Source: Pseudomonadota bacterium | GTDB taxonomy: Bacteria > Desulfobacterota > Desulfobacteria > Desulfobacterales > RPRI01 | Assembly (NCBI GenBank): GCA_018817425.1 | Contig: JAHITX010000131.1 | Span: 1-64,000 of the forward strand | Reading direction: 5' to 3' | DNA: 64,000 bases | Shown here: piece after piece, positions 29,460 through 52,915 of the stretch | Numbering within the stretch: position 1 is the first letter of the stretch | Layout of the letters: every line of letters starts with the position of its first letter | Program-made: the position numbers and the translations under genes | The notes under the pieces: model-generated | What the model saw: only the letters and a program-made list of their open reading frames with translations | Databases searched by the model: none | Told to the model about the DNA's origin: nothing

Positions 29460-29477
29460 TACCGGAAGGAAAAAAGC

Positions 29478-30089: not shown

Positions 30090-30128
30090 GCTCAAGATAT
30101 CCAAAACCGGTAAACAAAGGAATGATCT

Positions 30129-34548: not shown

Positions 34549-35307
34549 ATGGCAGGACGATTAGAAAATAAGGTAGTACTTATAACCGGAACAGGCGGTG
34601 GTCAGGGAAAGGCTGCAGCAATCCTGTTTGCAAAGGAAGGTGCTAAGGTCGTTGGCTGTGATTTAAAAGTGGAAGACAATAAGGAAACGGTCCGCATAAT
34701 TCGGGAAGCTGGTGGTGAGATGGTTTCACTGGAGCCTATTGACCTTACAAACGCTGAACACGCCAAACGGCTAGTAGCATTGACGGAAAAGACCTATGGC
34801 CGGCTTGATGTGCTCTATAACAATGCCAGTGCTGCCCGCTTCGCTCCGATGATGGAAATGTCTTTTGAAGATTGGGACTTTACTATCAAAAATGAGCTAA
34901 ATTTGATCTTCGTAATAACAAAAGCAGCACTTCCTCTGATGGTCAAATCCAAAGGAAGCTCCGTCATCAATACCGCTTCTATTGCCGGGATGGTAGCAGC
35001 TCATGGAAATTCAGTATCCCATGCCGCAACAAAAGGAGGCGTAATTGCTTTTAGCAGACAGCTATCTATTGAGGTTGCGTCACATGGAATCCGTGTGAAT
35101 ACAATTTCTCCGGGGGTGATCCGGACACCGGGAACAGAGCATATATTTTCTGATCAAAACCTTGTTGATATGATGGTGAAACAAATACCCATGGGACGCT
35201 ATGGCCTTCCGGAAGATATTGCAAAGGTGGCTTTGTTTCTGGCTTCAGATGATTCAGGGTTTATGACAGGGACAACTATTGTTGTTGATGGCGGTCAAAC
35301 AGCTTAA
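34549..35307 (+). CDS. Short-chain dehydrogenase/reductase with His in place of the catalytic Tyr
   Basis: A 252-residue classical SDR: nucleotide-binding TGTGGGQG (residues about 14-21), NNASA, catalytic Ser in NTASIAG and the C-terminal PEDIAKVALFLASDDSGFMTG with VVDGG. The YxxxK motif reads SHAATKGG, so Tyr is replaced by His while Lys is kept; some SDR groups show this. The substrate is unknown. AGGAG precedes the ATG. It follows the RND gene after 119 bases and may or may not share its transcript. Confidence 0.8.
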   Translation: MAGRLENKVVLITGTGGGQGKAAAILFAKEGAKVVGCDLKVEDNKETVRIIREAGGEMVSLEPIDLTNAEHAKRLVALTEKTYGRLDVLYNNASAARFAPMMEMSFEDWDFTIKNELNLIFVITKAALPLMVKSKGSSVINTASIAGMVAAHGNSVSHAATKGGVIAFSRQLSIEVASHGIRVNTISPGVIRTPGTEHIFSDQNLVDMMVKQIPMGRYGLPEDIAKVALFLASDDSGFMTGTTIVVDGGQTA

Positions 35308-35520
35308 TAGAAAGACAATCTTTTATTATAAATCAAACCCCGGTCTGAACTATGAAAATAATGATATGTCCGATATTTTATTATTTACATTTCATCTGTC
35401 CAAGAACTAAAGTGATAGGTAGTTGATTAAAAAGAAATCTACCATAGATTATCATCCCGTTTCTACAGCAACCAAAGAAGTTTGTCCTGTAAGATAATGA
35501 GGCAGGCAAAGAGTAAGAAG

Positions 35521-36273
35521 ATGATAAATAAAATTTGCGGCAATCTTATCGGAAAATACAAATATACGCTTAAGGTTGGAGTAGTATTTGTTTTTTTATC
35601 ATCATATGCTGCACAGGCTTATTCAGCTGATTTGGATCTTTTCATAAAACAGTGCAGGCAAAGCTATAGCAAAGTATCAGATTTTTCCTGTATGTTTCAC
35701 AAAAAAGAGCGGCTTAAAGATGAACTGGTTGAAGAAAAATATATTATTTTCAAGTTCAAAAAGCCTGCGTCATACTATTATAAGTATACAGAAGGAGTAG
35801 GAGAAGGCGCTGAAGCAATCTATGTTCATGGCAAATACGAAAACAAATTAAAAATACATCTTGGCAAATTTCTTGGATTTATTAATCTTTCATTAGATCC
35901 CGGAGGCTGGTTTTATATGAAGTACAACCGCCACACTGTTTTTGAATCAGATTTTAGTCATATAATTGATCTGATTGAAAATAATTACAACAAAGCCAAA
36001 ACAAATAAGGAAGTATCTATTGAAATAAAGAAAGAATATATATTAGATGGTCGCCAAACATATTTAATTAAAGCAGTTTTCCCCAGGAAACAATGCTATT
36101 ACGGTCATATCATATATATTTATTTAGATAAGCAACTGATGCTGCCGATAAAAATTGAAGTATATGGATGGGATAATGAGCTTTTGGAAATGTACTACTA
36201 TTCAGACATTAAAATTAACAATTGCTTTTCAGATATGGAATTTGACATTAAAAACCCGGCATATGGCTTTTAG
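35521..36273 (+). CDS. DUF1571 (LolA-like fold) exported protein
   Basis: An approximately 250-residue protein with a signal peptide (hydrophobic segment ending AAQAYSA). The mature part (FIKQCRQSYSKVSDFSCMFHKKERL, PASYYYKY, IKIEVYG) fits DUF1571, which is related to the LolA/LppX lipid-carrier fold. TTG (35482) and ATG (35497) codons upstream are in frame; ATG 35521 is preferred because the signal peptide then has normal length. A LolA-like periplasmic carrier is often encoded in specialised fatty-acid clusters such as aryl polyene loci, and here it precedes a radical SAM gene by nine bases. Transport of the lipid product is inference. Confidence 0.7.
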   Translation: MINKICGNLIGKYKYTLKVGVVFVFLSSYAAQAYSADLDLFIKQCRQSYSKVSDFSCMFHKKERLKDELVEEKYIIFKFKKPASYYYKYTEGVGEGAEAIYVHGKYENKLKIHLGKFLGFINLSLDPGGWFYMKYNRHTVFESDFSHIIDLIENNYNKAKTNKEVSIEIKKEYILDGRQTYLIKAVFPRKQCYYGHIIYIYLDKQLMLPIKIEVYGWDNELLEMYYYSDIKINNCFSDMEFDIKNPAYGF

Positions 36274-36282
36274 CTTAAATCT

Positions 36283-37317
36283 ATGGCACGAACCTTATTT
36301 AATGAACACAGTAAAAAAATCAAATATGCTCTTTCATTTATAAGAAAAAGAATAATTCATGTGAATTTGCAGATTTTGTATCAATGCAATTTCAAATGCA
36401 ATATTTGTGATTTCTGGAAGACACCGCATACCCAAAAGCCTCTGTTATCCCTTTCTCAGGTAAAAATAATTACGGAAAAATTAAAAGACATAGGCCCTCA
36501 GGTAATTTCCATCGGTGGTGGCGAACCCCTTTTGCATCCTGAAGTTATCGAAATTGCAAGAGTACTTTCAAAAGATAATTTCGGGGTAATGATAACAAAC
36601 GGATGGTATGTTACAAAAGATATTGCACAAGATCTTTTTAAGGCAGGTCTTTATGAAATCAGTGTTTCTGTGGACTATGCCGATCCAAAAAAACATGACA
36701 AGATGCGCGGTAAAGAAGGAGCATTTGACAGGGCGGTAGAAGCACTTTACATATTAAACAAAAACAGAACACATCCCTATCAGCGCATACATATGATTAC
36801 AACTGTAGGAGATGATAATATAGAAGATATTGAACCATTGATTCACCTTTGCAAGGATATCGGAGTGACTTATCTTATTTCTTACTATTCAAACAATAGG
36901 GGTAATTTTAAACCGGTAGAAAATGAGAAAACAATCAGTGATCATTTGGTATCGCTTCATAACAAATATCGGCACTTTGTGGCACTAAGAGATTACCTGA
37001 CCGGTATTTCCAAGGGAAACGGGAACAATGACAAACCATTATGCTTTACCGGTAAGAATCTTATCAATATTGATTCACAAGGTAGCATATCGCTTTGTAT
37101 AGACAGACTGGATGAATCTGCAGGAAATATTTTTACGGACAATATGTCAACCATCTTGCATAATCTTACCAAAATGCATAAAACGAACACATGCAACAAT
37201 TGCTGGACAAGCTGCCGCGGGTCTATAGAAACAATTTTGTATGGAAAACAGCGGCTGGCCAATCTTTTTGATTATTATCAGATGACAAGAGAAGTTAAAT
37301 TAGGACAGCGTTTTTAA
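36283..37317 (+). CDS. Radical SAM enzyme with SPASM-like C-terminus
   Basis: A 344-residue protein. The SAM cluster motif is CNFKCNIC (Cys35, Cys39, Cys42), followed by ISIGGGEPLLHPE (GGE motif) and MITNGWYV. The C-terminal region has additional cysteines (KPLCFTGKN, ISLCIDRLD, NTCNNCWTSC) that could bind an auxiliary iron-sulfur cluster. No close family is recognised. It begins nine bases after DUF1571 and its 3' end overlaps the convergent radical SAM gene by 18 bases. Confidence 0.8.
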   Translation: MARTLFNEHSKKIKYALSFIRKRIIHVNLQILYQCNFKCNICDFWKTPHTQKPLLSLSQVKIITEKLKDIGPQVISIGGGEPLLHPEVIEIARVLSKDNFGVMITNGWYVTKDIAQDLFKAGLYEISVSVDYADPKKHDKMRGKEGAFDRAVEALYILNKNRTHPYQRIHMITTVGDDNIEDIEPLIHLCKDIGVTYLISYYSNNRGNFKPVENEKTISDHLVSLHNKYRHFVALRDYLTGISKGNGNNDKPLCFTGKNLINIDSQGSISLCIDRLDESAGNIFTDNMSTILHNLTKMHKTNTCNNCWTSCRGSIETILYGKQRLANLFDYYQMTREVKLGQRF

Positions 37318-38325
37318 TTTTTGTTTAAGCATCAAATACAATTCATTAAATATTGAAAAAGGGTAAGTAAGTATAAGGGAAAAGCCAAGAGCGCATGCAG
37401 AATGGCATTGCCTGCCGCAATCGGGCTGAGAGCCAAACTTGTTCTTGGCATTTAATCTGATTTGGTGTAAATAGTTATTTTCCAAAAGGTTTTCGGCAAG
37501 ATTTCCGATTTCAAGGCAGGGATAAAATACATCTCCAGTGGGAGATACAACCAGCATAGTAAAAGGATAACAGGTAAATTTGTTAAAATTTTTCATATAT
37601 TCAAGATAAAGCAAAGAGCCGTAAACCGGACCGCCCTTTTGCTTTTCGGCTATAAGAAAGTCATAAAATTGTTTATAGTCGGGGTTATCGGTTAGTGACG
37701 CATGCGCTTTTACGCCAACAAGTTGCGGGCAGGCAGCAAAAGTACAGTTATTTTGTTTTGCAAAATGATAAACATCATATAGATCATTAATGTTTTCAGG
37801 AGTAACAACGCTGGAAATAAGCATTTCATATTTCCGGCCGGGTTGATTAGCCGCCAGATTTATATTTGAAATAATTTTTTTCAATGAGCCTTTTCCAATA
37901 CCGTACCAGGCATCAGCTTTGGTATGGTCAAGCGCATCAAGGCTGATTACCAGTGAATGAATGTTTGCTGTTATAACTGACAAATAAATATCTAAATCAT
38001 AACCATTTGTTGTAAGTACTATTTGTTTGAAACGAAGTTTTCCGATTCTTTGCATGATATATTCGAAATCCGGATGGTTAAGAGGTTCGCCACCGGTAAT
38101 AACAAGGTAATCACAATGCGAGCGTATTTTTTCAATAAGAGAGATTACGGATTTTCCCGGAAGTACCTCTGCAGGCAGGGCATAGTAAGGACGCTTTGAA
38201 CCATCGCTGCAATATGGACAGCGAAAATCGCATGCATATGTAAGATAATAGACGGATAAAAAAGGATGCCATTTATCGGTATAGTTAAACCATTTATGAT
38301 AAAAATATTTTAATATATCATTCAC
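37300..38325 (-). CDS. Radical SAM enzyme, convergent to its neighbour
   Basis: A 341-residue protein with CDFRCPYC (Cys32, Cys36, Cys39), YLVITGGEPLNHP, LTTNGYD and a C-terminal cysteine region (FTCYPF, DVFYPCLEIGN, DCGRQCHSAC) typical of SPASM-type auxiliary cluster binding. It is the only minus-strand gene in the lipid-like cluster and is divergent from the rhodanese-membrane gene (36 bases between starts). Substrate unknown. Confidence 0.8.
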   Translation of the reverse strand: MNDILKYFYHKWFNYTDKWHPFLSVYYLTYACDFRCPYCSDGSKRPYYALPAEVLPGKSVISLIEKIRSHCDYLVITGGEPLNHPDFEYIMQRIGKLRFKQIVLTTNGYDLDIYLSVITANIHSLVISLDALDHTKADAWYGIGKGSLKKIISNINLAANQPGRKYEMLISSVVTPENINDLYDVYHFAKQNNCTFAACPQLVGVKAHASLTDNPDYKQFYDFLIAEKQKGGPVYGSLLYLEYMKNFNKFTCYPFTMLVVSPTGDVFYPCLEIGNLAENLLENNYLHQIRLNAKNKFGSQPDCGRQCHSACALGFSLILTYPFSIFNELYLMLKQKLKTLS

Positions 38326-38361
38326 TCTTTTATTTGCTCATTTGCATAAGGTAAATACGCC

Positions 38362-39636
38362 ATGACCCGATTTGCAAAAACTGTTTTTATCCTGTTTATC
38401 TCAATCGCCTTAATTATTCCACCGGCATTATATTATATTTTTTCCAATGTTCCAACCATATCCGCACAAGAAGTTATAAAAAAGCTGCAATCAGATCCGG
38501 GAAGCATTACTGTTCTTGATGTAAGAGATAGTATTGATTTTGACAAAGCCCATATACAATCGGCTCAAAACATGCCATATGATGCTTTTTCACAAAAAGA
38601 TCTCTCAAACGGGCAGATAACAAATCTGAAATCCAAAAGAGTTTATATAATTTGTGAGAACGGCCTTGCCAGTATTGATATTACTCGAAAATTAAGAAAA
38701 CTTGATATAAAAGCATTTAATATAAAAGGTGGGATGCAGGCATGGATTGCCGCCGCTGGAAGTATTTGTCAAAAATCAGACTGCGATTTTATAGCTGCTT
38801 CGGGAAAACAAATCCCTATTCCGTTTAAGACCACACCAATTGTTTTACAATGGGTTGCCGTGTTTAACGGTATTGTTATCAAACCTTTGTATACGCTTTT
38901 ATCATTTATAATTATTGTTATCCTTTGGAAGAAGACCGAACCCGAACTGCGCGCAATCAAATACTCCATGTTTTTCTTCTTTAATGGAGAAAACAGTTGT
39001 GCTGCTAATTATATTTTTTTTAATCATGATTCCTATTTGTTTGAATACCTGCATATTGTCGGTATGCTTCTTGGTTTTGGTTTTTTTCTATACGGTCTTT
39101 TTGAAGGTATAGATAAATATCTGCTCCATTATTCCGATCAAAAAAAATCCTGCTCACTGACCGGATTATGCCGCAAATGCATAAAATATGACGATGTTAC
39201 CTGCGGTTTGCAAAGAGTATTAATATTTACAGGAATTGCCTTTTCCGGTATAGCTCTGATGCCTGTTTGCGCTAAATTAAAAATGGTTTCTTATAACACG
39301 ATTATTGTGGATATTGCTTACAATTACAGCCATCCGGTCATTTATCAGTTGTTTGAAATGCAGTATTTACCTGTTGTGGCATCTATTTTAATGTTGGCTG
39401 CTACCTTTATATTATGGAAAAATAAAAATGCCGTGCATACTGCAAAACTTGTTTTTGCCGCAGCAATAGGCACAATGTCTTTTGCTATCTTTCGGTTTGT
39501 TTTGTTTCATTGTTATGATGATTCATTATTTTGGATGGATTTCTGGGAAGAAATAACCGAATTTTGTTTTATACTAAGTATATTGTTTGTGCTGTGGACT
39601 TTCAGACGATCATTTTTTCAAAGACCAGGTAAATAA
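38362..39636 (+). CDS. Membrane protein with periplasmic rhodanese-like domain
   Basis: A 424-residue protein: one N-terminal transmembrane helix (about 9-27), a rhodanese domain (VLDVRDSIDFDKAHIQSAQN to KAFNIKGGMQAW, active-site Cys in YIICENG) and then seven or so hydrophobic helices (from about residue 160). A cysteine-rich cluster (CSLTGLCRKCIKYDDVTC) lies between helices and may bind metal. Sulfur transfer or redox sensing at the membrane is possible. It is followed by the FabZ-like gene after 27 bases. Confidence 0.72.
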   Translation: MTRFAKTVFILFISIALIIPPALYYIFSNVPTISAQEVIKKLQSDPGSITVLDVRDSIDFDKAHIQSAQNMPYDAFSQKDLSNGQITNLKSKRVYIICENGLASIDITRKLRKLDIKAFNIKGGMQAWIAAAGSICQKSDCDFIAASGKQIPIPFKTTPIVLQWVAVFNGIVIKPLYTLLSFIIIVILWKKTEPELRAIKYSMFFFFNGENSCAANYIFFNHDSYLFEYLHIVGMLLGFGFFLYGLFEGIDKYLLHYSDQKKSCSLTGLCRKCIKYDDVTCGLQRVLIFTGIAFSGIALMPVCAKLKMVSYNTIIVDIAYNYSHPVIYQLFEMQYLPVVASILMLAATFILWKNKNAVHTAKLVFAAAIGTMSFAIFRFVLFHCYDDSLFWMDFWEEITEFCFILSILFVLWTFRRSFFQRPGK

Positions 39637-39663
39637 TACCGAAAATTGTCTTACAGGAGAAAA

Positions 39664-40125
39664 ATGCGATTTATACTCATTGACCGGATTACAGACTGGA
39701 AACCCGGCAAGTATGCAAAAGCAACAAAAAATATAAGTTTAAGCGAAGATTTCTTTGATGACCATTTCCCTTTAAAACCTGTCATGCCGGGTGTTCTTAT
39801 TTTAGAAGGGCTCGCTGAGGTAGCCGGGTTGCTTCTTGAAGAAACGGTTCGAAATAATGAAGGCCGAAATGTGAAAGCACTACTTTCTCTGATTGAAAAA
39901 GCCAAATTTCGCGATTTTGTTAAACCGGGCGATTGCCTTGTATATGAAGTCGATATTGAATCTATCAATGAAATAGGTGGAAAAATAAAAGGCCGGATCA
40001 CAAGAAGTGGTAAACAAATCGGCGATGCCCGCCTGGTTTTTTCTTTTCGTGAAATTGAAAATTCATATCTTGATAAAAGGCGAAGTGAAATGCTTGCTTT
40101 TCTTCTGGGTGAAAATAATGCCTGA
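39664..40125 (+). CDS. 3-hydroxyacyl-ACP dehydratase, FabZ-like
   Basis: A 153-residue hot-dog protein. DDHFPLKPVMPGVLILEGLAEVAG carries the catalytic His (HFP) and the conserved acidic residue of FabZ (NxxFFxGHFPxxPVMPGVLxxE); PGDCLVYEVDIE follows as usual. It would dehydrate beta-hydroxyacyl-ACP. The ATG at 39664 is chosen because AGGAG precedes it directly; a TTG at 39646 is less likely. Its last bases overlap the start of the next gene. Confidence 0.85.
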   Translation: MRFILIDRITDWKPGKYAKATKNISLSEDFFDDHFPLKPVMPGVLILEGLAEVAGLLLEETVRNNEGRNVKALLSLIEKAKFRDFVKPGDCLVYEVDIESINEIGGKIKGRITRSGKQIGDARLVFSFREIENSYLDKRRSEMLAFLLGENNA

Positions 40126-41065
40126 AGTTGCAATTACAGGAATTGGTATTGTTTCTCCTTTTGGAATAGGGAAAAATATTTTTTATTCATCTCTTCAAAA
40201 AAAGAAGCCTGTTCATCTCGAACCCTTATCTGAATTTCACGGCACACAATTAGAAAATTATGGTGTTGGCTCTGTTGCCGATTTTAAGGATGCATCAAAA
40301 CAGTTTAATCGTAAACACATCAAATTTATGTCTACAGCCGCTCTTATTGGCTGTCTTGCCGGTAAAGAAGCTGCCGATGAGGCTTGTATCACAGAACGGT
40401 TTGCGCCACATCGCATAGGAATTTTCTCAGCAACCGGACTTACTGCTGCAAATATAAGCGAAAGCAGGGAAATGCTTGAAGAATGTATGGATGAAGATGG
40501 CAATTTCTCAGAAATTTTGTTCGGAGAAAAGGGATTGCCGTCTCTTAATCCGTTAAACTCATTTAAAATACTTCCGAATATTCCACCCTGCATCCTGTCT
40601 TTAATACTAGGCGTAAAAGGTCCCAACATGATATTTAATCCATGGGAGGATCAGGCTGCCTGCGCGATACTTGAAGGTTACAAAGCAGTCAAAGAAGGTG
40701 AAGCCGATTGCGTGCTGGTCGGCGCCGCAGATACTCCCTCTTCCCCGCCAACCGTTGCTTATTTAAAACAACAAAATATTTTGGGAGAAAACAGCTATCC
40801 TTCATCTGCCGGAGCATATCTTGTACTTGAATCTGACGAAACCGCTATAAAACACCACAGAAAAATCTATGGCATTGTAAAAAATATTGAAGTAATCTGT
40901 TCTGCCCAAAAAGTATATGATCCACTTTCAGCGGTTATTGGCAGAACATTTGCTGCAGCGCCTGCTCTTTTTCTTGCAGGGGCCGCGATGGGTATTACTA
41001 ATAATCGGCAGATGATCGGTACGCACGGGACCCGATTTGAATTTTCGCTTGAGATAAATAAATGA
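40118..41065 (+). CDS. Ketosynthase-like chain-length-factor-type protein (no active-site Cys)
   Basis: A 315-residue thiolase-fold protein starting MPEVAITGIGIVSPFGIG. Where ketosynthases have the nucleophile (GPxxxxDTACSSS), this reads GPNMIFNPWEDQAA, i.e. Glu at the Cys position; the HGTGT and GHxxGA histidine motifs of the C-terminal half are also absent and the protein is about 100 residues short. It should be catalytically dead and act as partner of the intact KS encoded next (4-base overlap), as chain-length factors do in type II polyketide and aryl polyene systems. The ATG at 40118 overlaps the dehydratase stop. Confidence 0.72.
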   Translation: MPEVAITGIGIVSPFGIGKNIFYSSLQKKKPVHLEPLSEFHGTQLENYGVGSVADFKDASKQFNRKHIKFMSTAALIGCLAGKEAADEACITERFAPHRIGIFSATGLTAANISESREMLEECMDEDGNFSEILFGEKGLPSLNPLNSFKILPNIPPCILSLILGVKGPNMIFNPWEDQAACAILEGYKAVKEGEADCVLVGAADTPSSPPTVAYLKQQNILGENSYPSSAGAYLVLESDETAIKHHRKIYGIVKNIEVICSAQKVYDPLSAVIGRTFAAAPALFLAGAAMGITNNRQMIGTHGTRFEFSLEINK

Positions 41066-42309
41066 AAAGAAGGGTTGTTATTACAGGTATCGGATGCGTT
41101 TCGCCTTTTGGCGTTGGAATTGATATTTTCTGGTCTTCTATTTCCAAGGATGTATCCGGCATATCAAAAATATCACGTTTTGACAGTAGTAAATTTGAAG
41201 TACACCTTGCAGGCGAAATTAAACATCAAATACCAGGCTTCAGTGAATATGATAAAATATTTAAAGAAGATGTTAAAATATCTTTTGCATTAAATGCCGC
41301 CGATCAGGCTATGAAAGATGCCGGAATAATAAATCTTAACCCCAAAGCACTTTTACATATAGGGACATCACTTGAAACAATCGACCTTCAAAAGATTATT
41401 CAAAACAAAAGTACGCAGCTTAAAGATATTTTACAAAGAAGTTTAAAAGATGGTGCACGGCCACTTCAGATGCCATTAGATATTGCATGTGAACTGATTG
41501 AAGCAGTATATGGTGTTCCCGGATTAAAAATTACAAATGTAAGTGCTTGTGCAGCATCCACTCAGGCAATCGGGCATGCGTTTCGGCGTATCAGGGACGG
41601 TTCTTATGATATGGCTCTATGCGGTGGATTTGACTCCATGATCAATCCATTAGGTATCGGAGGCTTTCAATTACTGGGGGCATTGAATACAAATAGTGAC
41701 CTTGGAGCGCGTGCGTGCAGACCTTTTGATGCCGCCAGAAGCGGAACCGTTATAGGAGAAGGCGCCGCCATGTTTGTGATAGAACCTTTAGATCAGGCAT
41801 TAAAAATGAATAAATTCATTTATGCGGAAATTAAAGGGTATGGCACATCTTTAGATGCTTATAATTTAAGCGCTCCTGATCCGGAAGGAACCGGCGGAGA
41901 ACAAGCTGTTCGAAATGCTTTAAATGATGCAAATATTAAAGCAAATGAAATTGATGCTGTCAGCGCGCATGGTACAGGGACTTATCAAAACGATAAGGTG
42001 GAAGCCACTATGTTACGCAGAATTTTTGGAGATAAATGGAAAAGCATTCCTGTTATATCTACCAAATCTCTTGTCGGACATCTTATCGGTGCCGCCGGGG
42101 CAATTGAAACAGCCGCATGTATTCAGGGTTTTGTTCAACATATACTACATCCCAATGGATCATTACAAAAAACCGGAGATGGATGTGAACTGGATCATAT
42201 TGTGAACAGCCCGAGAGAATTTAACGGCACTAATATTTTAAAAAATTCTTTCGGATTCGGCGGACAAAATGCCGCAATAATTTTAGGTAATGCAAAACAT
42301 GGCAATTAA
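41062..42309 (+). CDS. Beta-ketoacyl-ACP synthase II (FabF-like)
   Basis: A 415-residue KS with full catalytic triad: Cys163 in NVSACAAST, His in AHGTGTYQND and His in SLVGHLIGAAG, plus the C-terminal NSFGFGGQN. It condenses malonyl-ACP with an acyl chain. As a dedicated KS adjacent to a CLF-like protein, a dedicated ACP and reductases, it probably serves the specialised chain made by this cluster rather than housekeeping fatty acid synthesis. It overlaps both neighbours. Confidence 0.92.
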   Translation: MKRRVVITGIGCVSPFGVGIDIFWSSISKDVSGISKISRFDSSKFEVHLAGEIKHQIPGFSEYDKIFKEDVKISFALNAADQAMKDAGIINLNPKALLHIGTSLETIDLQKIIQNKSTQLKDILQRSLKDGARPLQMPLDIACELIEAVYGVPGLKITNVSACAASTQAIGHAFRRIRDGSYDMALCGGFDSMINPLGIGGFQLLGALNTNSDLGARACRPFDAARSGTVIGEGAAMFVIEPLDQALKMNKFIYAEIKGYGTSLDAYNLSAPDPEGTGGEQAVRNALNDANIKANEIDAVSAHGTGTYQNDKVEATMLRRIFGDKWKSIPVISTKSLVGHLIGAAGAIETAACIQGFVQHILHPNGSLQKTGDGCELDHIVNSPREFNGTNILKNSFGFGGQNAAIILGNAKHGN

Positions 42310-43045
42310 TAAGACCCAAAATAATCAAAAAGTTGCACTTGTTGTGGGGGTAAGCAGCGATATCGGACAGGCCATAGCAGAAAAACTGTCACATATGAAT
42401 ATAAAACTTCATCTTACAGCACATAAAAATAAGTCGCGTGCCGAAGAGTTTGCAAAAACACTTTCATCATGCAGCTTGCATTCTCTGGATATAAAAAATT
42501 CAGACCAGACGGATCAGTTGTGTGAATTGATTTTTGAAAAAGAAAAGCGCCTGGATATAATGATAAACTGCGCTTCTGTTAATATAGAACAGCCTGCGCT
42601 TGGAATGAATGATGATGAATGGAAAAATGTAGTTGATGTTAATTTGACCGGGGCTTTTTATTTATGCCGCAGTGTTGCAAAATATATGATAACAAACCGC
42701 TATGGAAGAATTGTAAACATTTCTTCCATAGCTGCAACAAGAGGAGGTCGGGGTCAGATTAATTATGCCGCTTCAAAATCAGGACTTGAATCAATGACAC
42801 GTGTAATGGCTCTCGAACTTGGCCGTAAGGGAGTTCTTGTTAATTGTATTGCTCCAGGCTGTATTGAAACTAAAATGACACAGCGGGTTCGCAATGAATA
42901 CGGAGAAGAAATTCTTAAAAAAATTGCCCTTCGCCGTTTTGGATTACCGGTTGAGGTTGCCGAACTGGTGTGTTTTTTGTGCTCCGATGCCTGTTCTTAT
43001 ATTACAGGCCAGGTTATTCGGATTGACGGAGGATATAGCTTATAA
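42299..43045 (+). CDS. 3-oxoacyl-ACP reductase, FabG-like (first copy)
   Basis: A 248-residue SDR with GVSSDIGQAIAE for NADP(H), NISSIAA, the catalytic INYAASKSG (Tyr and Lys present) and the C-terminal ITGQVIRIDGGYS. It reduces beta-ketoacyl-ACP. Both ATG 42290 and ATG 42299 overlap the KS gene; the latter gives the start MAINKTQ. Its stop shares bases with the next ATG (TAATG). Confidence 0.87.
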   Translation: MAINKTQNNQKVALVVGVSSDIGQAIAEKLSHMNIKLHLTAHKNKSRAEEFAKTLSSCSLHSLDIKNSDQTDQLCELIFEKEKRLDIMINCASVNIEQPALGMNDDEWKNVVDVNLTGAFYLCRSVAKYMITNRYGRIVNISSIAATRGGRGQINYAASKSGLESMTRVMALELGRKGVLVNCIAPGCIETKMTQRVRNEYGEEILKKIALRRFGLPVEVAELVCFLCSDACSYITGQVIRIDGGYSL

Positions 43046-43644
43046 TGGATTTGTTAAAGGCCATAAAAGACCGAAGAAGTGTACACCGCTTTTTAGAAAA
43101 AATACCGGCAAAAGAATTGTTGTTTGAACTTATTGAATATGCCGTTATGGCGCCAAATGCCATGAACCGTCAGGATTGGCGATTTACCATCATCCGCTCT
43201 CATAAAGTAAAACAACAAATTTCTTCTGTGGTGGAAAAGAAATGGTCACAGTCTGGTGATGGAGAATCCGGAATTGATGATCCTATAAAAACATATGCAG
43301 GTAATTTTATTTCTTTTGTAAGCGCACCTGTTTTAATCATGGTAGATATTAAAAAACCACCGCGGTTTTTAATTAAACGATATGATGAAAACGCAGCTAA
43401 AATTACAGGAAGCTACGCATCCGCTTGTATGGCTGTGCAAAATCTTCTTTTGGCATCACACGATAAAGGATTGGGCACATGTGTATATTCCGGATTTCTT
43501 GCGGCTGAAAATGAAGTCAAACAGATTTTAAACATTTCGGATAAAAGAGAACTGGTGTGTCTTATCGCGCTAGGATACCCGGATGAAAACCCGCTGCCAC
43601 CCGGCCGAAATGATATTCAACATATATTAACAATTATAGATTAG
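43045..43644 (+). CDS. Nitroreductase-family flavoprotein
   Basis: A 199-residue FMN protein: DRRSVHRFLEKI at the N-terminus (FMN phosphate), APNAMNRQDWRF, a central dimer region and GLGTCVYSGF with IALGYPDENPLPPGR at the end. The family includes nitro- and ene-reductases and flavin-dependent dehydrogenases. Within a fatty-acid-type cluster without an obvious FabI/FabK enoyl reductase, it could reduce or desaturate an acyl chain; this is inference. The ATG overlaps the FabG stop. Confidence 0.82.
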   Translation: MDLLKAIKDRRSVHRFLEKIPAKELLFELIEYAVMAPNAMNRQDWRFTIIRSHKVKQQISSVVEKKWSQSGDGESGIDDPIKTYAGNFISFVSAPVLIMVDIKKPPRFLIKRYDENAAKITGSYASACMAVQNLLLASHDKGLGTCVYSGFLAAENEVKQILNISDKRELVCLIALGYPDENPLPPGRNDIQHILTIID

Positions 43645-43648
43645 GTAG

Positions 43649-44050
43649 ATGATGACAAGAGAAGATATATTAAATGGTATAAAAGATTGTCTGGTCGAAG
43701 TAGTAGATATCAATCGCGCTGACATACATGAATCATCCAAATTGATTGATGATCTTGGTGCGGATTCGCTGGATTTACTGGATCTGATTTTTCAGCTTGA
43801 ACAATACTTTAAGATCAAGCTTTCTGCCCGTAAATTCGAAAAACAGATTCAAAAAGAACTTGGAGATATCCCGCTTGAAGTAGAAGGCGTATATACTAAA
43901 GAAGCTATTACCTTAATTCGAAAATACATGACGGAAATCCCGGAAGAAGAACTCCAAAATGGCCTTACCATTCAGGATTTTCCGAAAAGATTCAGAGTTT
44001 CAACCATGATAAATCTGGTTGAAAGTACATTGGAGAAAACAAATGAATAG
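43649..44050 (+). CDS. Acyl carrier protein with long C-terminal extension
   Basis: A 133-residue ACP; the phosphopantetheine Ser40 lies in DDLGADSLDLLDLIFQLE. The usual ACP has about 80 residues. Here helix III is followed or interrupted by about 50 extra residues (FEKQIQKELGDIPLEVEGVY ... PKRFRVSTMINLVES), in which the final helix typical of ACP appears only at the very end. The insertion therefore sits between helices II/III and the C-terminal helix. A second ATG directly follows the first. It is the carrier for the local KS, FabG and FabZ enzymes. Confidence 0.85.
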   Translation: MMTREDILNGIKDCLVEVVDINRADIHESSKLIDDLGADSLDLLDLIFQLEQYFKIKLSARKFEKQIQKELGDIPLEVEGVYTKEAITLIRKYMTEIPEEELQNGLTIQDFPKRFRVSTMINLVESTLEKTNE

Positions 44051-44756
44051 AACTGTTTTGATCACTGGTGGAAGCGGTGAATTGGGCCAGGTGCTGGTAG
44101 CACGTTATACTGAGGCAAATGATCGGGTTTTTTTTACATTTCATCAAAATAGCAAAAACGCCGGAAAAATTGCCGAAAAGACTGGGGCTACTCCTATTCA
44201 GGCGGATTTAACCAAGCCGGACCAGGTAGCACAGATGATAGAGCAAATTGAAAAACAAGTCCCTGCTATAGATATTCTGATAAACAATGCCGGTGCAACT
44301 CAGGTTATGCCTTTTGCTCTGATTGAAGAAGAAGACTGGGATTATATTATTAATGCTAATCTGAAATCCATGTTTCTGACAACCAAGGCAGTCGCAAGAG
44401 GCATGATAGCCGCCAAAAAAGGCGTAATTATTAATATCGGATCTATTGCCGGAAAACGACTCCTTGAAGTTCCGGTACATTATGCTACAACAAAAGCAGC
44501 AGTATTCGGTTTTACAGTTTCACTGGCAAAAGAACTTGCCCGGTATAAAATTCGCGTGAATATGGTAACGCCTGGTATGCTGGAATCCGGTGTCAGTAGT
44601 ATGGTCCCGGAAAAAAGAAAAGAGGAATATTTAAAACATTGTACTGCAGGAAGGCCTGGTAAAATGAGCGAAGTCGCTTCTGTTATCTATTTTTTATCAA
44701 GCGAAGATGCAAGCTATATAAATGCTCAGGAAATTATTGTAGATGGCGGATTATAG
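44043..44756 (+). CDS. 3-oxoacyl-ACP reductase, FabG-like (second copy)
   Basis: A 237-residue SDR: GGSGELGQVL, NNAGATQ, NIGSIAG, catalytic VHYATTKAA (Tyr and Lys) and NAQEIIVDGG. It overlaps the ACP gene by eight bases; an upstream in-frame ATG at 44019 would lie deeper in the ACP gene and is less likely. Two FabG-type enzymes in one cluster suggest either heterodimers or two different keto substrates. Confidence 0.87.
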   Translation: MNRTVLITGGSGELGQVLVARYTEANDRVFFTFHQNSKNAGKIAEKTGATPIQADLTKPDQVAQMIEQIEKQVPAIDILINNAGATQVMPFALIEEEDWDYIINANLKSMFLTTKAVARGMIAAKKGVIINIGSIAGKRLLEVPVHYATTKAAVFGFTVSLAKELARYKIRVNMVTPGMLESGVSSMVPEKRKEEYLKHCTAGRPGKMSEVASVIYFLSSEDASYINAQEIIVDGGL

Positions 44757-44770
44757 TAAAAGGAAAGTAA

Positions 44771-45217
44771 ATGAAATTCCGTTTGGTTGACAGTATTATC
44801 CGATATTGCGAAAATACATCCATAAGCACCCGAAAGGCCATTTCATTTGAGGAGTTTTCTCTTTTAAAGCGCTGGGGCAGAAAAGGAGAATTTCCTGAAT
44901 TGCTGATTTTACAACTTGCAGTGGAATCTGCTGCTTTTCTTATGGCGGTATCAAGTCAATTTGAATATATTGGCCTGCTTAAAACAATTGACTATGTAAA
45001 ATATAAAGCACAAACAGCTCCCGGCGATATACTCGAATGCCAAATAACTACAATGCCCGAAACCAATGGCAGTAACAGTTTCAAATATCTTATTAAAACC
45101 GGTAAACAAATTATTTCCGAAGGTGCTTTTACATTAGAACCTGTTAAATTAGAGATGTTTTATGACCCAAAAATTTACATGATGATGTTAGAGGAGATTT
45201 GTGTCCAGACTTTTTGA
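44771..45217 (+). CDS. Hot-dog-fold protein without dehydratase active site
   Basis: A 148-residue protein whose centre (WGRKGEFPELLILQLAVESA) lines up with the FabZ helix region GHFPxxPVMPGVLxxEAMAQ, but Glu replaces the catalytic His and Gln the catalytic Glu, and the PVMPG segment is shortened. DYVKYKAQTAPGDILECQIT matches the following strand. It may pair with the active FabZ-like protein at 39664, as inactive halves do in other hot-dog heterodimers, or bind acyl chains. AAAGGA precedes the ATG. It overlaps the next gene by 17 bases. Confidence 0.6.
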   Translation: MKFRLVDSIIRYCENTSISTRKAISFEEFSLLKRWGRKGEFPELLILQLAVESAAFLMAVSSQFEYIGLLKTIDYVKYKAQTAPGDILECQITTMPETNGSNSFKYLIKTGKQIISEGAFTLEPVKLEMFYDPKIYMMMLEEICVQTF

Positions 45218-46625
45218 TCGCAACTATACATATTTTTCAACTGTTCGCGGCATGTGCCGTCAATGCAAAAAAATTATTCCGGCTCGTATTGTGTTTAAAG
45301 ACAATAAAGTCTGGCAACAACGGCTTTGTCATACATGCGGCACAGATGATTCTGCGTTGATTGCAGGTGATGTAAACTGGTACCTTGAAAGAATAAGCGA
45401 ACCAAGGCATGATCATTCACCGTTAATATCTTCCGGCAATGAAAAAAGCAGCAGAAAGGGATGCCCTCATGACTGCGGCCCATGCAGCTGGCATGCAACA
45501 CCTTGTCAACTGCCGGTTATATCAGTAACCAATGCCTGTAATCTTCGCTGCCCGATATGTTTTACTTATAACCGCTCGGATAAAATTTATAATATTTCCC
45601 TTGAAGAAATGAGGCATCGTGTAGACAATGTGATTGAACAAAGCGGCGAATGCGATCTGTTTAATATTACCGGCGGAGAACCCACGCTTCATCCTGATAT
45701 TTTCGATATAATAAGGATATGCAAACGGCCGGAAATTGGTCGTGTCACTCTTAACAGCAATGGTATTACTTTAGCAAAAGATCAATCTTTCTGTGACCGG
45801 CTGGCTGAGCTTGGTGTATATGTTATATTGTCATTTAATACTTTTTCTTCCGAATCAAGCATCCGGATTCATGGAACAGACCTTGTTGAAACCAAACTTA
45901 AAGCGATTGATAATTTAAAAAAAGCCGGTGTAAGGATGACGTTATTAAATGTCCTTATTCAGGATGAAAACGAAGACCAACTGCCCAAACTTATTGATCT
46001 CATAAGAAACAATGATCACATATTAAGCCTTACAATTCAAACCATGACCTATACCGGACAAGGTGGCGGGAACTTTCAGCGCTCAAGGCATATTCCTGTT
46101 GATGTCGCAACTCAGCTTTTATGTAACGGGATTGAAGGTGAAATAAAACCCGGTGATTTCATTTCCAGACCTTCCGCCCATCCGTTATGCTATTCTCTGT
46201 GTTATCTGTTCAAACTGGATACTTTGTTTTTACCGTTTTCAAATGTATTAAGTACTGCCGAACAACATGACATGCTAAAAGATTCTTATTTGCTGCGGGT
46301 TAAAGATGATCAGGACTTTTTTACAGATATAGTAAATCGTCTGTATGCCCAAAACCGGACGGATATACTGCCCGTATTTAAGCAATTCGTAAAAGAAATA
46401 TTTCCGGCAGGCAAACCGTTGAGCCTTTCCGAACGCAGGGAAAAGACGGAATCAGCCGTACGTATAATTTGTATACATTCGCATATGGATGAAGACACAT
46501 TTGACTGTTCCAGAACTGTTCTATGTCCGGATCAGGTTCCATGTGAAGACGGAAAACTTATTCCAGCCTGTACTTATAATCTTTTTTACCGCCAACAGGA
46601 TGAAAACTTTTATGTCAGCACATAA
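45201..46625 (+). CDS. MJ0619/tetraether-synthase-like radical SAM enzyme (first of tandem pair)
   Basis: A 474-residue radical SAM protein. An N-terminal ribbon (CRQC, Cys19/22; CHTC, Cys43/46) is followed by CPHDCGPC (88-95), the SAM cluster motif CNLRCPIC (Cys113, 117, 120), NITGGEPTLHPD and LNSNGITL. The C-terminus ends with CSRTVLCPDQVPCEDGKLI then PACTYN, the shape of the last cluster-binding region of this family (xCxxxxxxPDGxxIPxCxYN). Archaeal family members join lipid alkyl chains by C-C bond formation (tetraether synthase); bacterial relatives act on fatty acyl tails or are uncharacterised. Assignment to the family is by motif recall. The start at 45201 (GTG/TTG-type) overlaps the hot-dog gene. 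Confidence 0.75.
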   Translation: MSRLFDRNYTYFSTVRGMCRQCKKIIPARIVFKDNKVWQQRLCHTCGTDDSALIAGDVNWYLERISEPRHDHSPLISSGNEKSSRKGCPHDCGPCSWHATPCQLPVISVTNACNLRCPICFTYNRSDKIYNISLEEMRHRVDNVIEQSGECDLFNITGGEPTLHPDIFDIIRICKRPEIGRVTLNSNGITLAKDQSFCDRLAELGVYVILSFNTFSSESSIRIHGTDLVETKLKAIDNLKKAGVRMTLLNVLIQDENEDQLPKLIDLIRNNDHILSLTIQTMTYTGQGGGNFQRSRHIPVDVATQLLCNGIEGEIKPGDFISRPSAHPLCYSLCYLFKLDTLFLPFSNVLSTAEQHDMLKDSYLLRVKDDQDFFTDIVNRLYAQNRTDILPVFKQFVKEIFPAGKPLSLSERREKTESAVRIICIHSHMDEDTFDCSRTVLCPDQVPCEDGKLIPACTYNLFYRQQDENFYVST

Positions 46626-48003
46626 ACTACTTGGTATTACTCAATCCACCTGTCCGGTCTGCAGGGAATTGGTGCCTACAAAACTTCTTAATATAAACAA
46701 TGACCTTTATTTTGAAAAGCTCTGTCCGGTTCATGGTATTAACAAGGTATTTGTAAGAGCGGATGTTAATGACTATATAAAAACGCTTCATTATGTCAAA
46801 CCAGCTTCTCAACCTGTAAAAAGTTATGGAAACGCTGAAATGCCATGCCCAAAAGGGTGTGGTTTTTGTGAACGTCATGAACAACATCTCTGCCTGCCGA
46901 TTATTGAAATCACACAAAACTGCAATCTGAATTGTCCTATATGTCTGGTGGATGCGGGCAGTAATGAGCAACTGTCTGTTGAAGAATTTTCTAACATAAT
47001 AGATCATCTTATTAAAGCGGAAAAACAGATTGATGTCTTGAATTTATCCGGAGGTGAACCGCTCATTCATCCTGACCTTTTGGCCATTATTGATAATGCT
47101 TTAAACCGCCCGGAAATAGTTCGTGTAAGTATTTCAACAAACGGATTGCATCTTCTTAAAAAGCCGGAGCTTCTTTCACAACTAAAGGCGCGCGATGTGG
47201 TTATTTCTCTTCAATTTGACGGATTTGATGATGATATTTACCAAAAGCTTAGAGGCCTGCCACTAGTCAAAGAAAAACAAATGATTCTTGATCGCCTCAT
47301 ATCTGCTGATATTTCAACAAGCCTCACCATGACCGCTATGCGGGATTTAAATGAACACGCATTGCACGATATGATAAACTTGTTGTTTTCAACCGATAAT
47401 ATTATCAGCCTGATGATCCAGCCCATGGTATATGAAGGACGCGCAAGAGATCTTGCGGTTCCCGAAAAGCGGCTTACACTGCCTGAGATAATTCAGTTAT
47501 TAGGAAATACCGGCCAGGTGCAAGTTGATGATTTTACCCCCCTGCCCTGTTCCCACCCGGCCTGTTTTTCACTTGCCTTTTATCTTATGCTTGACGAAGG
47601 TGGGTATGTATCGATTAACCACCTGATGGATGTCCCTGCCTGGCTGGATATTATTGCCAACCAGGGCATTTTCGGTCTTGATGAAGATTCTCATGAACAG
47701 ATCAAAAAAAGTATTTATGAACTCTGGTCAGGACCTGCGGCAAGTAATCCCGAATCCAAAAAAGCATTAAATGCGATCCGGGAATTGTTGCGTCACATCA
47801 GCAGTATTCCGGAATCAGGTTTTAATCCGCAAAAAGTATTTAAAGTCAGTGAAAGAAAAATAAAATCCATTTTCATACATTCATTTCAGGATGTGGACAC
47901 ATTCGATCTTTCAAGGGCAAGACGTTGTTGTAATGGCTACCCCCAGAAAGACGGAACCGTTATTCCGGTATGTGTACATAATGTGCTTGGCAGAAATCGC
48001 TGA
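46612..48003 (+). CDS. MJ0619/tetraether-synthase-like radical SAM enzyme (second of tandem pair)
   Basis: A 463-residue paralogue of the preceding gene. N-terminal CPVC (Cys14/17) and CPVHG (Cys38), then CPKGCGFC (79-86), SAM motif CNLNCPIC (Cys104, 108, 111), NLSGGEPLIHPD, ISTNGLHL and the C-terminal RCCNGYPQKDGTVIPVCVHN. Sequence identity with the first copy looks moderate, so they are likely to have distinct roles or form a heterodimer. ATG 46612 overlaps the upstream gene by 14 bases and has AGGA 11 bases before it; ATG 46600 is an alternative. The stop overlaps the next start. Confidence 0.75.
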   Translation: MSAHKLLGITQSTCPVCRELVPTKLLNINNDLYFEKLCPVHGINKVFVRADVNDYIKTLHYVKPASQPVKSYGNAEMPCPKGCGFCERHEQHLCLPIIEITQNCNLNCPICLVDAGSNEQLSVEEFSNIIDHLIKAEKQIDVLNLSGGEPLIHPDLLAIIDNALNRPEIVRVSISTNGLHLLKKPELLSQLKARDVVISLQFDGFDDDIYQKLRGLPLVKEKQMILDRLISADISTSLTMTAMRDLNEHALHDMINLLFSTDNIISLMIQPMVYEGRARDLAVPEKRLTLPEIIQLLGNTGQVQVDDFTPLPCSHPACFSLAFYLMLDEGGYVSINHLMDVPAWLDIIANQGIFGLDEDSHEQIKKSIYELWSGPAASNPESKKALNAIRELLRHISSIPESGFNPQKVFKVSERKIKSIFIHSFQDVDTFDLSRARRCCNGYPQKDGTVIPVCVHNVLGRNR

Positions 48004-48653
48004 TGGTTGTAAGTAATTTTAAACATAAAACCAGTCCGTGGCTATATCCTTTATTGGGATGGTCGCTGGTTGGTCATTTTATTTACAGTATCGTTTATTG
48101 TATTATAAAACAATCTCCTGAAGAATTATTCTGGATTTCTCATATTGCATCACTTTTAGGAGGCATTGGCATTCTGAAAAACAGCCGGATGCTGATTTCA
48201 GTCTCTCTTATCAGCCTTTTTATTCATCATTTGTTTTGGGTTTTTGAAACCTTGGTCTGGCTGATTGCAGGCAAATTTCCATTCGGCACAACCTACTATC
48301 TTCTAAATGCCGATATCTGGTTATGGCTTCAGGTTGCCAATCATTTCTATGCGGTTCCCGTTTTGCTTTTTGTGGCCTACAAAAAAGGTGGAATTTCAAA
48401 GAATTCATGGATAGGATCGGGGGTACTTTTTGGTATCCTTATATTAATCAGTTACTACTTTCTCCCTCCTGCCGCTAATGTGAATTGCGCCCATGCATTA
48501 TGGCCCGGGCTTGAAAAAACTGTATTTGCCGGTCTGGCAAACCTGCCTTCATGGCAGTATCTGATTTGTATTCTTGCTATAAATATTGTAGCGATTAATC
48601 TTCCGGTGTATGGGGGAATGCGTTTTATCTTTAGAATTTCAAATAAGTATTAA
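48003..48653 (+). CDS. Polytopic membrane protein, last gene of the acyl-chain cluster
   Basis: A 216-residue protein with about six hydrophobic helices. Conserved-looking polar residues within helices are the His and Trp in ISHIASLLGG, FIHHLFWVFE and VANHFYAVP. No family is recognised with certainty. Direct overlap with the radical SAM gene (one base) says it belongs to the same operon; a membrane enzyme or transporter for the lipid product is possible. Confidence 0.6.
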   Translation: MVVSNFKHKTSPWLYPLLGWSLVGHFIYSIVYCIIKQSPEELFWISHIASLLGGIGILKNSRMLISVSLISLFIHHLFWVFETLVWLIAGKFPFGTTYYLLNADIWLWLQVANHFYAVPVLLFVAYKKGGISKNSWIGSGVLFGILILISYYFLPPAANVNCAHALWPGLEKTVFAGLANLPSWQYLICILAINIVAINLPVYGGMRFIFRISNKY

Positions 48654-49646: not shown

Positions 49647-50219
49647 TTATCTTATTATTTTTTCATATTCGTTTTGGGTATCAATATCAATTCCGGCTTC
49701 AGTGTTTTCGATTTCAACCAGATTAAGTTTTTTTTTGTGCTCTTCAATTATAATTCTTCCACCGGTATCTCCAGACAAAGCAAGAAGTTCTTGTTTATAT
49801 CTTGCCGGAAAAATAACCGGACTTCCCTTTTTGCCGTTATAAACCGGAACTACAATATTACTCGGGGTTTTTTTAAAATTATCTATCAGGATATTAATTA
49901 TTGTTTCCCTTAAGAATGGCTGGTCACCTACTAAAAACATATAAGCATCCGTTTCTTTATGCGATGCACTGACCCCAAGTTTTACTGCTGCGCTTTGCCC
50001 TTGGTCAGCATGATCATTATATACAATTTTATCCAGATATTTAATTCCAATATCTTTTATGCCCGTATTTCTATAGATAAGTATTACTTCATCAAGATGA
50101 GATGCTTTCGCGGCTCTTATTATATATTCTACCATAGGAATACCTGATAAAGGCAACAGCAGTTTTTCTTTTTTCATCCGCTTTGAAAACCCTGATGCCA
50201 GAATAATGCCTGAAACCAT
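49647..50219 (-). CDS. mocA: Molybdenum cofactor nucleotidyltransferase, MocA-like
   Basis: A protein of about 190 residues with the nucleotidyltransferase motif GIILASGFSKRMKKEKLLLP, FLVGDQPFLRE (metal-binding Asp) and YNGKKGSPVIFP. MocA attaches CMP to molybdopterin for xanthine-dehydrogenase-family hydroxylases. The ATG at 50219 is preferred over the GTG at 50225 because GGAG lies seven bases before it. It follows yqeC in a run of Mo-hydroxylase maturation genes. Confidence 0.85.
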   Translation of the reverse strand: MVSGIILASGFSKRMKKEKLLLPLSGIPMVEYIIRAAKASHLDEVILIYRNTGIKDIGIKYLDKIVYNDHADQGQSAAVKLGVSASHKETDAYMFLVGDQPFLRETIINILIDNFKKTPSNIVVPVYNGKKGSPVIFPARYKQELLALSGDTGGRIIIEEHKKKLNLVEIENTEAGIDIDTQNEYEKIIR

Positions 50220-50233
50220 TTCCACTCTCCAGC

Positions 50234-50995: not shown

Positions 50996-51006
50996 CAGCT
51001 ACATTA

Positions 51007-51327
51007 TTATAAAAACGGTTCAACAAAAATCAGCATTTTACCGCCGCAAACATCTCCGCCTTTTGTTCCAAGATCATCGGTGAGATCTGCTTCTATAAGC
51101 GCCGGTTTCTTTTCGGTAAGAAGGCAGCGAAGAGATGCACTGCGAACCTGATTCTCACCACATCCGCCACCGATTGACCCATAAGTTTTGCCATCCACGC
51201 AGATGAGCATTTTTGCACCAACCTCGCGCGGCGTTGACCCAGCTGCCTTAACAATAGTTGCAAGGCATACCGGTATATTTTGTTTTTGAAATTGTGCCAA
51301 TTGTTCAAATATTTCCTTATCGGTCAT
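51007..51327 (-). CDS. XdhC/CoxI-family protein, N-terminal domain only
   Basis: A 106-residue protein that consists of the XdhC_CoxI N-terminal domain: VCLATIVKAAGSTPREVGAK, GSIGGGCGENQV and the terminal GGDVCGGKMLIFVEP. It keeps the CGG motif and the GGGC cysteine, residues linked to molybdenum cofactor binding and sulfuration in XdhC. It overlaps the end of the next upstream gene (51324-52103), whose own N-terminal domain has lost those motifs. Together the two may make one functional XdhC. Confidence 0.82.
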   Translation of the reverse strand: MTDKEIFEQLAQFQKQNIPVCLATIVKAAGSTPREVGAKMLICVDGKTYGSIGGGCGENQVRSASLRCLLTEKKPALIEADLTDDLGTKGGDVCGGKMLIFVEPFL

Positions 51328-52103: not shown

Positions 52104-52112
52104 TTTTAGAGG

Positions 52113-52892: not shown

Positions 52893-52915
52893 AACAATCT
52901 CCAAAAATATAAAAA

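Follow-up and report, generated by a model that had tools for sequence, protein, structure and literature searches.

Archaeal tetraether synthase (Tes) joins saturated lipid chains through a sulfur–carbon intermediate: as described in PMC9433317, the enzyme, with a pair of lipid chains bound, abstracts a hydrogen from an inert carbon, keeps the radical as an S–C bond on its C-terminal cluster and then bonds it to a second carbon that bears a radical. Many bacterial Tes homologues have been reported, and PMC8941075 and PMC11868695 term their activity unconfirmed. Mss, a bacterial membrane-spanning lipid synthase that we liken to the present system by description, also couples fatty acids, and the available excerpt of PMC11868695 describes no link between Mss and a fatty acid synthase (FAS) gene cluster. 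The ladderane candidate clusters of anammox bacteria, for their part, join type II FAS genes, extra ketosynthases (KSs) and several genes for radical S-adenosylmethionine (SAM) enzymes (PMC2649909), and clusters labelled 'ladderane' by antiSMASH, with function unassigned, have been reported in several non-anammox phyla (PMC9902471). Here we analyze a 13 kb stretch of fifteen genes (35482-48653) in a window of 64,000 nucleotides from a Pseudomonadota bacterium (GCA_018817425.1, contig JAHITX010000131.1, positions 1 to 64,000), in which a type II FAS-like gene set lies beside two radical SAM proteins related to Tes, hereafter rSAM3 and rSAM4.

We put at about even the chance that this locus makes a dedicated acyl chain, bound to its own acyl carrier protein (ACP), which is then joined or cyclised through Tes-like radical C–C bond formation; the product is probably a radically re-bonded lipid. 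A preliminary description of the window had already proposed that the locus is dedicated to an acyl chain and employs radical chemistry, and the KS clade and the position of the radical SAM genes beside FAS genes support that proposal; the key feature absent from it was the Tes likeness of rSAM3 and rSAM4, together with their HMPTM zinc ribbon. Judged by titles, we found no description of this cluster family in the open-licence PubMed Central (PMC) literature. Its parts belong to known superfamilies, and their combination, their separate enzyme clades and their spread appear undescribed there.

Relationship of rSAM3 and rSAM4 to tetraether synthase

The plus-strand genes for rSAM3 (45201..46625) and rSAM4 (46612..48003, most likely starting at ATG 46612 rather than at the first start of its open reading frame, ORF) encode proteins that match the Pfam Radical_SAM model and carry an N-terminal HMPTM zinc ribbon (Pfam). 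On sequence evidence both are relatives of archaeal Tes, the best solved relative of each being the M. jannaschii enzyme (7tol; E 3e-42 for rSAM3 and E 2.5e-46 for rSAM4). An AlphaFold2 model of rSAM3 (mean pLDDT 88.1, 25 alignment rows) matches 7tom with Z 46.4 and a root-mean-square deviation of 2.8 over 441 of 474 residues, at 24-25% identity to M. jannaschii Tes over the model, and the next structure after the two Tes entries is MoaA, with Z 20.5. For rSAM3, then, the predicted fold is that of solved Tes over nearly the full length.

The metal sites of Tes, taken from PMC9433317, were compared across 28 rSAM3-family and 27 rSAM4-family alignment rows; four of the latter (L045-L047 and a third L027 protein) are not of this cluster kind or fall outside the main branch of rSAM4. 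C73, C77 and C80 of the N-cluster and the His aligned there are present in 28/28 rSAM3 and 26/27 rSAM4 rows (one gap), as are the radical SAM cysteines, and the cysteines aligned with positions 338, 455 and 470 occur in all 28 and all 27; those of the rubredoxin site are conserved except at gaps. At all four metal sites, every row with letters there has the aligned cysteines. The rubredoxin-site residue H36 is variable (16/28 rSAM3 and 24/27 rSAM4 rows; Cys in the window rSAM3). From the alignment, the 338, 455 and 470 cysteines are presumed to be ligands of the C-terminal cluster, for which the accessible part of PMC9433317 names only Met439.

In a radical SAM tree of 110 of 111 rows remaining after a length cut (L048 entered twice; quick method with SH-aLRT support only and a few very long branches), rSAM3 forms one clade of 28 rows (99) and rSAM3 and rSAM4 together form one group of 53 rows (99), inside which L067 and the duplicate of L048 also fall. 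An unstarred branch (support 91) unites the rSAM4 rows, except for the third L027 protein, which has a long branch and stands outside it. This topology most likely reflects an ancient duplication, both products of which have stayed together. TrsS, a radical SAM (seleno)protein, belongs to the same superfamily and gives matches near full length, but we rejected this identity for both proteins: against the curated cut-off of 490 bits for NF045646, rSAM3 scores 189.5 and rSAM4 256.8 bits, and a true TrsS pair sits elsewhere in the window genome (547.9 and 671.4 bits; L003:1444-2829 on contig C96 and L004:1033-2478 on contig C25).

The breadth of this superfamily, which includes TrsS and many bacterial proteins of unconfirmed activity (PMC8941075 and PMC11868695), leaves room for a rival explanation in which rSAM3 and rSAM4 act on the chain, or on its head group, by radical chemistry of another sort (for instance desaturation, epimerisation or transfer of a methyl or adenosyl group) and form no new C–C bond between carbons of the chain. 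We regard this as rather unlikely, given that the predicted fold of rSAM3 and its metal-site residues match those of Tes, an enzyme known for C–C coupling.

A fatty acid synthase-like gene set linked to the radical SAM pair

The chain-building genes precede rSAM3 on the plus strand. The first encodes a FabZ-type dehydratase (DH; 39646..40125; FabA-like, 83.6 bits) that keeps the catalytic His motif as DDHFP. It is followed by a short KS partner of the chain length factor (CLF) kind (40118..41065, most likely starting at ATG 40118 rather than at the first ORF start), in which the active-site Cys is substituted and the N-terminal ketoacyl-synt domain alone is matched (49.1 bits), and by the KS itself (41062..42309; Pfam ketoacyl-synthase), which has its Cys-His-His residues and scores under the cut-off of all the NCBIfam KS models that it matches, FabF included. 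Two FabG-like ketoreductases (KRs) come next, KR1 (42290..43045; FabG model NF009466, 228.8 bits for a cut-off of 222; TIGR01830, 248.3 for 297.75) and KR2 (44043..44756, first ORF start 44019; TIGR01830, 194.6 bits, under the cut-off), with a nitroreductase-family flavoprotein (43045..43644; PF00881, 103.1 bits) and a long ACP (43649..44050; PP-binding, 37.9 bits), of 133 amino acids, in which an insertion precedes the last helix, encoded between them. A hot-dog protein that lacks the His motif of FabZ (44771..45217; NCBIfam FabZ, a weak 37.5 bits for a cut-off of 113) closes the set.

Alignment places the S-Y-K pattern in KR1 and KR2 and the serine in the ACP, and the KS, KR, DH and ACP of a type II FAS are thus all found with their expected catalytic residues. 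Related loci repeat the pattern: the KSs have the active Cys in 17/17 rows with letters at the site and both His in 18/18, the CLF-like partners lack Cys at the KS active position in 14/14 rows, and the ACP insertion is visible in all 18 rows (loci) of the long-ACP family. A second hot-dog protein without the HFP motif occurs in the window, L012, L019, L022 and L024, and many related loci have SDR (short-chain dehydrogenase/reductase) matches that are best to KR2. Searches of solved structures with FabZ and the ACP returned general FabZ and ACP entries.

Relatives of rSAM3 are sparse, being found at E 1e-50 in 3 of 395 genomes sampled from the phylum and at 1e-60 in 2 of 146 from the order (the window genome counted in both), and in 5 of 63 genomes of one class. 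In one Planctomycetota order, 3 of 10 genomes have an rSAM4 relative at 1e-70, the genome from which that search started being one of the three. A scan of named genomes yielded at least 79 loci, drawn, like the locus counts below, from its best 80 matches and not to be read as prevalences, and viral contigs yielded 64 loci, all of them weak partial matches (best E 8e-12). We compared 34 loci, namely the window, six further contigs and L022-L048, with L203 replacing L041. Family sizes among them are 26 for rSAM3, 26 for rSAM4 (including L045-L047), 18 each for the KS and the long ACP, 15 for the nitroreductase, 14 for the CLF and 11 for rSAM1. Both rSAM3 and rSAM4 are present in 18/34 loci, and the pair with a KS in 13/34 (window counted), spanning several phyla. 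The pair stands with KS, CLF, FabZ-type protein, ACP and nitroreductase in records assigned by their titles to Verrucomicrobiota (L022), Muiribacteriota (L024), Myxococcota (L027), Actinomycetota (L030, L038) and Pseudomonadota (L203); the Planctomycetota loci L026 and L040 have no nitroreductase on the sequence examined at the locus. FAS genes accompany rSAM3 in L025 (Campylobacterota) and rSAM4 in L048 (Bdellovibrionota), and the Aquicultor locus L030 also has rSAM1, rSAM2 and a DUF1571 match, its rSAM2 being the one strong relative of that protein among the 34 loci (274.7 bits, 40% identity). When genomes picked from these loci were searched whole for rSAM4 matches at 1e-30, 12 of 14 had at least two.

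This association is particular to the clade. In a count that excludes the window and the GR16-43 locus (L041/L203), a KS lies near 16/30 loci of the rSAM3/4 clade vs 1/54 other Tes-like loci, which is above chance, and the corresponding figures are 12/30 vs 0/54 for FabZ, 9/30 vs 0 for the ACP and 11/30 vs 0 for the nitroreductase. Among the other Tes-like loci, a KS match on the sequence examined occurs at L056:2992 alone, where the CLF match may be to the same gene. Distances between family members also correlate across loci, at 0.93 for rSAM3 with rSAM4 (18 loci), 0.59 for rSAM3 with the KS and 0.56 for rSAM4 with the KS, the other gene pairs giving 0.36-0.82 (permutation p 0.001-0.05), figures that are uncorrected for kinship of the loci. 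We consider it about as probable as not that the locus is a member of a dedicated, sparse family of type II FAS-like clusters, and the family has probably spread horizontally.

Aryl polyene clusters include a KS/CLF pair, KR, DH with an inactive DH, ACP and a LolA-like part. At the level of parts the window has the same kinds, and the locus could be read as an aryl polyene or flexirubin variant with bystander radical SAM genes. Against this stand the closeness of the genes and the correlation of rSAM3 and rSAM4 distances with those of the FAS genes, and also a FabI-like enoyl reductase in L048 (310.9 bits, cut-off 337), unexpected for a polyene; we judge the variant improbable. The window differs in its paired Tes-like enzymes, and an ammonia-lyase, a further aryl polyene part, was not matched by Pfam among the 17 window proteins scanned. 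The cluster that encodes this reductase, in a member of the Bacteriovoracaceae (L048:9929-17291), has rSAM4 only, as a single match genome-wide. An argument for a polyene product from the absence of an enoyl reductase was dropped because L048 carries a FabI-like one and housekeeping reductases may serve the other loci.

The resemblance to ladderane candidates was addressed with a KS tree built by a careful method from 45 KSs, after removal of partial matches with at most 330 aligned columns, which included one short KS from an anammox genome (L200:9096) and fragments of large synthases. In this tree the 18 KSs of the clusters group as a single clade (98/91), which excludes both the 20 further KSs from their genomes and the 7 from one anammox-type genome. 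The hydrazine synthase family matched 37 of 198 Planctomycetota genomes, nine of which, with a best match in an open frame of 809-844 amino acids, were taken as anammox. No Tes-like protein was found in these nine genomes, whose completeness is not stated; the rSAM4 search gave weak matches to the radical SAM core there, with a best score of 45.1 bits. One region of the anammox-type genome G672 encodes ACP-like, FabZ, KS, second KS, flavoprotein-like and radical-SAM-like proteins (two judged by sequence only), in an order resembling kuste3603-3608 as given in PMC4790861, and its ACP-like protein has 86 amino acids and no insertion. In three KS-bearing regions of this genome, none of 5 proteins with a CX3CX2C motif has the Tes N-cluster motif, a pattern that recovers 28/28 rSAM3-family rows, 26/27 rSAM4-family rows and both TrsS.

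An assignment to the ladderane pathway draws on what the two kinds of cluster share, namely type II FAS genes with additional KSs and several genes for radical SAM enzymes (PMC2649909). It has to contend with 9/9 anammox-type genomes in which no Tes-like protein was found, with seven anammox KSs outside the cluster clade, with the short ACP-like protein of the examined region and with anammox radical SAM proteins devoid of the N-cluster motif; phytoene-desaturase-like genes belong to the ladderane candidates, and no such flavoprotein was matched by Pfam among the 17 window proteins. We therefore rejected membership of the ladderane clusters and hold a ladderane-type pathway to be very improbable. 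The ladderane likeness drawn in the preliminary description is not supported by these comparisons. A grouping of the KS with housekeeping FAS proteins, which that description named as speaking against its proposal, was not seen: in the tree, built for the KS, the cluster KS stands apart from the remaining FabF-type proteins of those genomes. Some of the antiSMASH 'ladderane' clusters of non-anammox phyla may be of the present kind, which counsels caution over automatic ladderane labels for such clusters.

Proposed Tes-like bond formation and the evidence for and against it

We favour radical C–C coupling as the best explanation of what is observed directly, that is, the genes, the predicted Tes fold of rSAM3, the aligned metal-site residues, the conservation of the set and the correlated distances, and from these we infer the substrate, the type of bond and the destination of the product. 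Going by gene identity, a special acyl chain would be assembled on the long ACP by the KS and its CLF-like partner, the two KRs, and FabZ together with a presumably inactive partner. This greasy chain would be bound by rSAM3 and rSAM4, where a SAM-derived radical would remove hydrogen from unactivated carbons; the substrate radical would be parked on the C-terminal [4Fe-4S] cluster, as in Tes, and a new C–C bond would then close a ring within one chain or link two chains. The DUF1571 protein and the last membrane protein of the locus may deliver the product to the envelope or attach it there.

C–C bond formation in or between acyl chains is the most likely activity of rSAM3 and rSAM4 because the predicted fold and the metal-site residues match Tes. 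As the pair diverged early and mostly stays together, the two proteins probably act at different positions or steps, and the loci that carry rSAM4 alone suggest that one enzyme can suffice for some products. More tentatively, the locus may represent a widespread bacterial counterpart of tetraether chemistry, in which a diverged Tes-like pair makes sp3-sp3 C–C bonds on chains from its own ACP-dependent synthase and gives rise to a cross-linked, bolaform or multi-ring class of lipids by a route not so far known from bacteria.

Several observations weigh against the C–C coupling explanation. The identity of either protein with Tes itself was rejected: rSAM3 scores 200.5 and rSAM4 208.2 bits for NF045702, with a curated cut-off of 450, and the pair forms its own clade, while M. 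jannaschii Tes groups with the two TrsS of the window genome, away from rSAM3 and rSAM4. Compared with Tes/GDGT-MAS (Mj0619), with which the window proteins share the predicted rSAM3 fold, the zinc ribbon and the aligned cysteines, they are a diverged pair, placed inside a type II FAS cluster. The labile Met439, conserved in archaeal Tes, is replaced by His in 27/28 rSAM3 and 24/27 rSAM4 rows, and Tyr459, likewise conserved in archaeal Tes, is found in 0/28 rSAM3 rows and 23/27 rSAM4 rows; Tes variants M439A and those at Y459 remain active, according to PMC9433317. Two of the 14 genomes searched whole hold one rSAM4-type match only, and in 12/30 clade loci the sequence examined shows not one of the five FAS genes looked for, seven of these loci lying on pieces shorter than 10 kb and L018, L023, L029, L032 and L044 on longer ones. 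The expectation that radical SAM genes would be conserved beside FAS genes holds in other genomes, though not on the sequence examined of these 12. Finally, the window rSAM3 and rSAM4 are nearest to Verrucomicrobiota, and the window KS is nearest to L012, L013 and L019 (100/99). Since the radical SAM and KS trees partly disagree in this way, the cluster seems to have swapped modules in addition to moving between hosts, a disagreement that is without bearing on the type of bond formed.

The replacement of Met439 by His at the C-terminal cluster also figures in another explanation, according to which rSAM3 or rSAM4 halts at the S–C stage and yields a thiol or thioether, the sulfur coming from an auxiliary cluster that local sulfur-transfer proteins rebuild. 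Tes itself gives a thiolated lipid when SAM is limiting (PMC9433317), and candidate sulfur-transfer proteins are at hand. The window encodes a protein with a rhodanese domain after a hydrophobic N-terminus and followed by a further hydrophobic part (38362..39636, plus strand; Rhodanese, 44.8 bits), whose family is present in 5 loci, window counted, and six other loci have a fusion of cysteine desulfurase and rhodanese (Pfam run on the L012 fusion). Desulfurases, however, serve ordinary Fe–S assembly too, and the hydrophobic N-terminus of the window rhodanese suggests that the protein may face the periplasm. Sulfur insertion is in our view unlikely, if still an alternative of some weight, and we retain C–C coupling as the preferred reading.

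Because a distinct pair of Tes homologues is linked here to a pathway dedicated to chain building, the kind of substrate on which the pair acts can be predicted. The comparison also points to carriers that, judged by their records, are probably cultured strains, namely betaproteobacterium GR16-43 (CP019169, L041/L203) and Massilia mucilaginosa CCM 8733 (L037, with no KS on the sequence examined). If the chemistry is Tes-like, the locus would reveal a bacterial means of welding inert lipid carbons, supply a further source of lipid biomarkers and open a genetic path to new hydrocarbon skeletons.

Gene order, accessory genes and surroundings

All fifteen genes are open and full length by an ORF check, and Pfam and NCBIfam scans back the names given to them. 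The inventory of the preliminary description (DUF1571 protein, four radical SAM proteins, rhodanese, FabZ, KS/CLF, two reductases, nitroreductase and ACP) is accordingly confirmed, and its inactive hot-dog protein fits the absence of the FabZ His motif. The near-continuous run of overlapping genes that it reported holds for the plus-strand genes at 38362-48653, in which neighbours overlap or lie at most 14 bases apart, and breaks down upstream: the locus is not a single operon, because rSAM2 (37300..38325), read from the minus strand, separates two plus-strand runs, its 3' end overlapping the end of rSAM1.

The upstream run comprises the DUF1571 (LolA-like) protein (35482..36273, plus strand; Pfam DUF1571, 131.6 bits; LolA_like, 21.7 bits, under its cut-off), starting at TTG 35482 or alternatively at ATG 35521, and rSAM1 (36283..37317, plus strand), a radical SAM protein with a cysteine-rich C-terminus whose best NCBIfam model gives 109.4 bits for a cut-off of 306.05. 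The Radical_SAM Pfam scores of the four proteins are 85.7 (rSAM1), 61.7 (rSAM2), 98.1 and 80.3 bits. The last gene (48003..48653, plus strand) encodes a membrane protein of a cluster-linked family (E 1.1e-10 to a profile built from five other loci) present in 9 loci; neither it nor the hot-dog protein has a Pfam match at E 0.001. TMEM164 is an acyltransferase. The membrane protein matches it with a Foldseek E of 0.067 and with Z 12.4 over 183 of 216 residues, the next match having 9.2, which is a weak hint at acyl transfer, although helical proteins may share such an arrangement.

Other families vary between loci. In eight loci (L033, L035, L036, L037, L038, L040, L044 and L203) a family of class III aminotransferases, identified by Pfam in its L037 member, lies near Tes-like genes, which suggests an amine-bearing product there and products that vary between subfamilies. 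A PEMT/ICMT-like membrane protein family is present in L012, L013, L018, L019 and L030 (PEMT, 34.2 bits for the L012 member) and was not found in the window. On the contig of L018, where the five FAS genes looked for are all missing, a Gabija defence pair (L018:3500-7214; GajA 600 bits, GajB 694 bits) lies between the desulfurase and rSAM3 genes.

Upstream of the locus, the TetR, HlyD and RND genes at 29418-34429 fall in no family common to at least three compared loci, and the SDR gene at 34549-35307 groups with general SDRs. On the other side, the adjoining minus-strand genes at 49647-53362 resemble, as judged by their translations, a maturation set of the molybdenum-cofactor/XdhC type.

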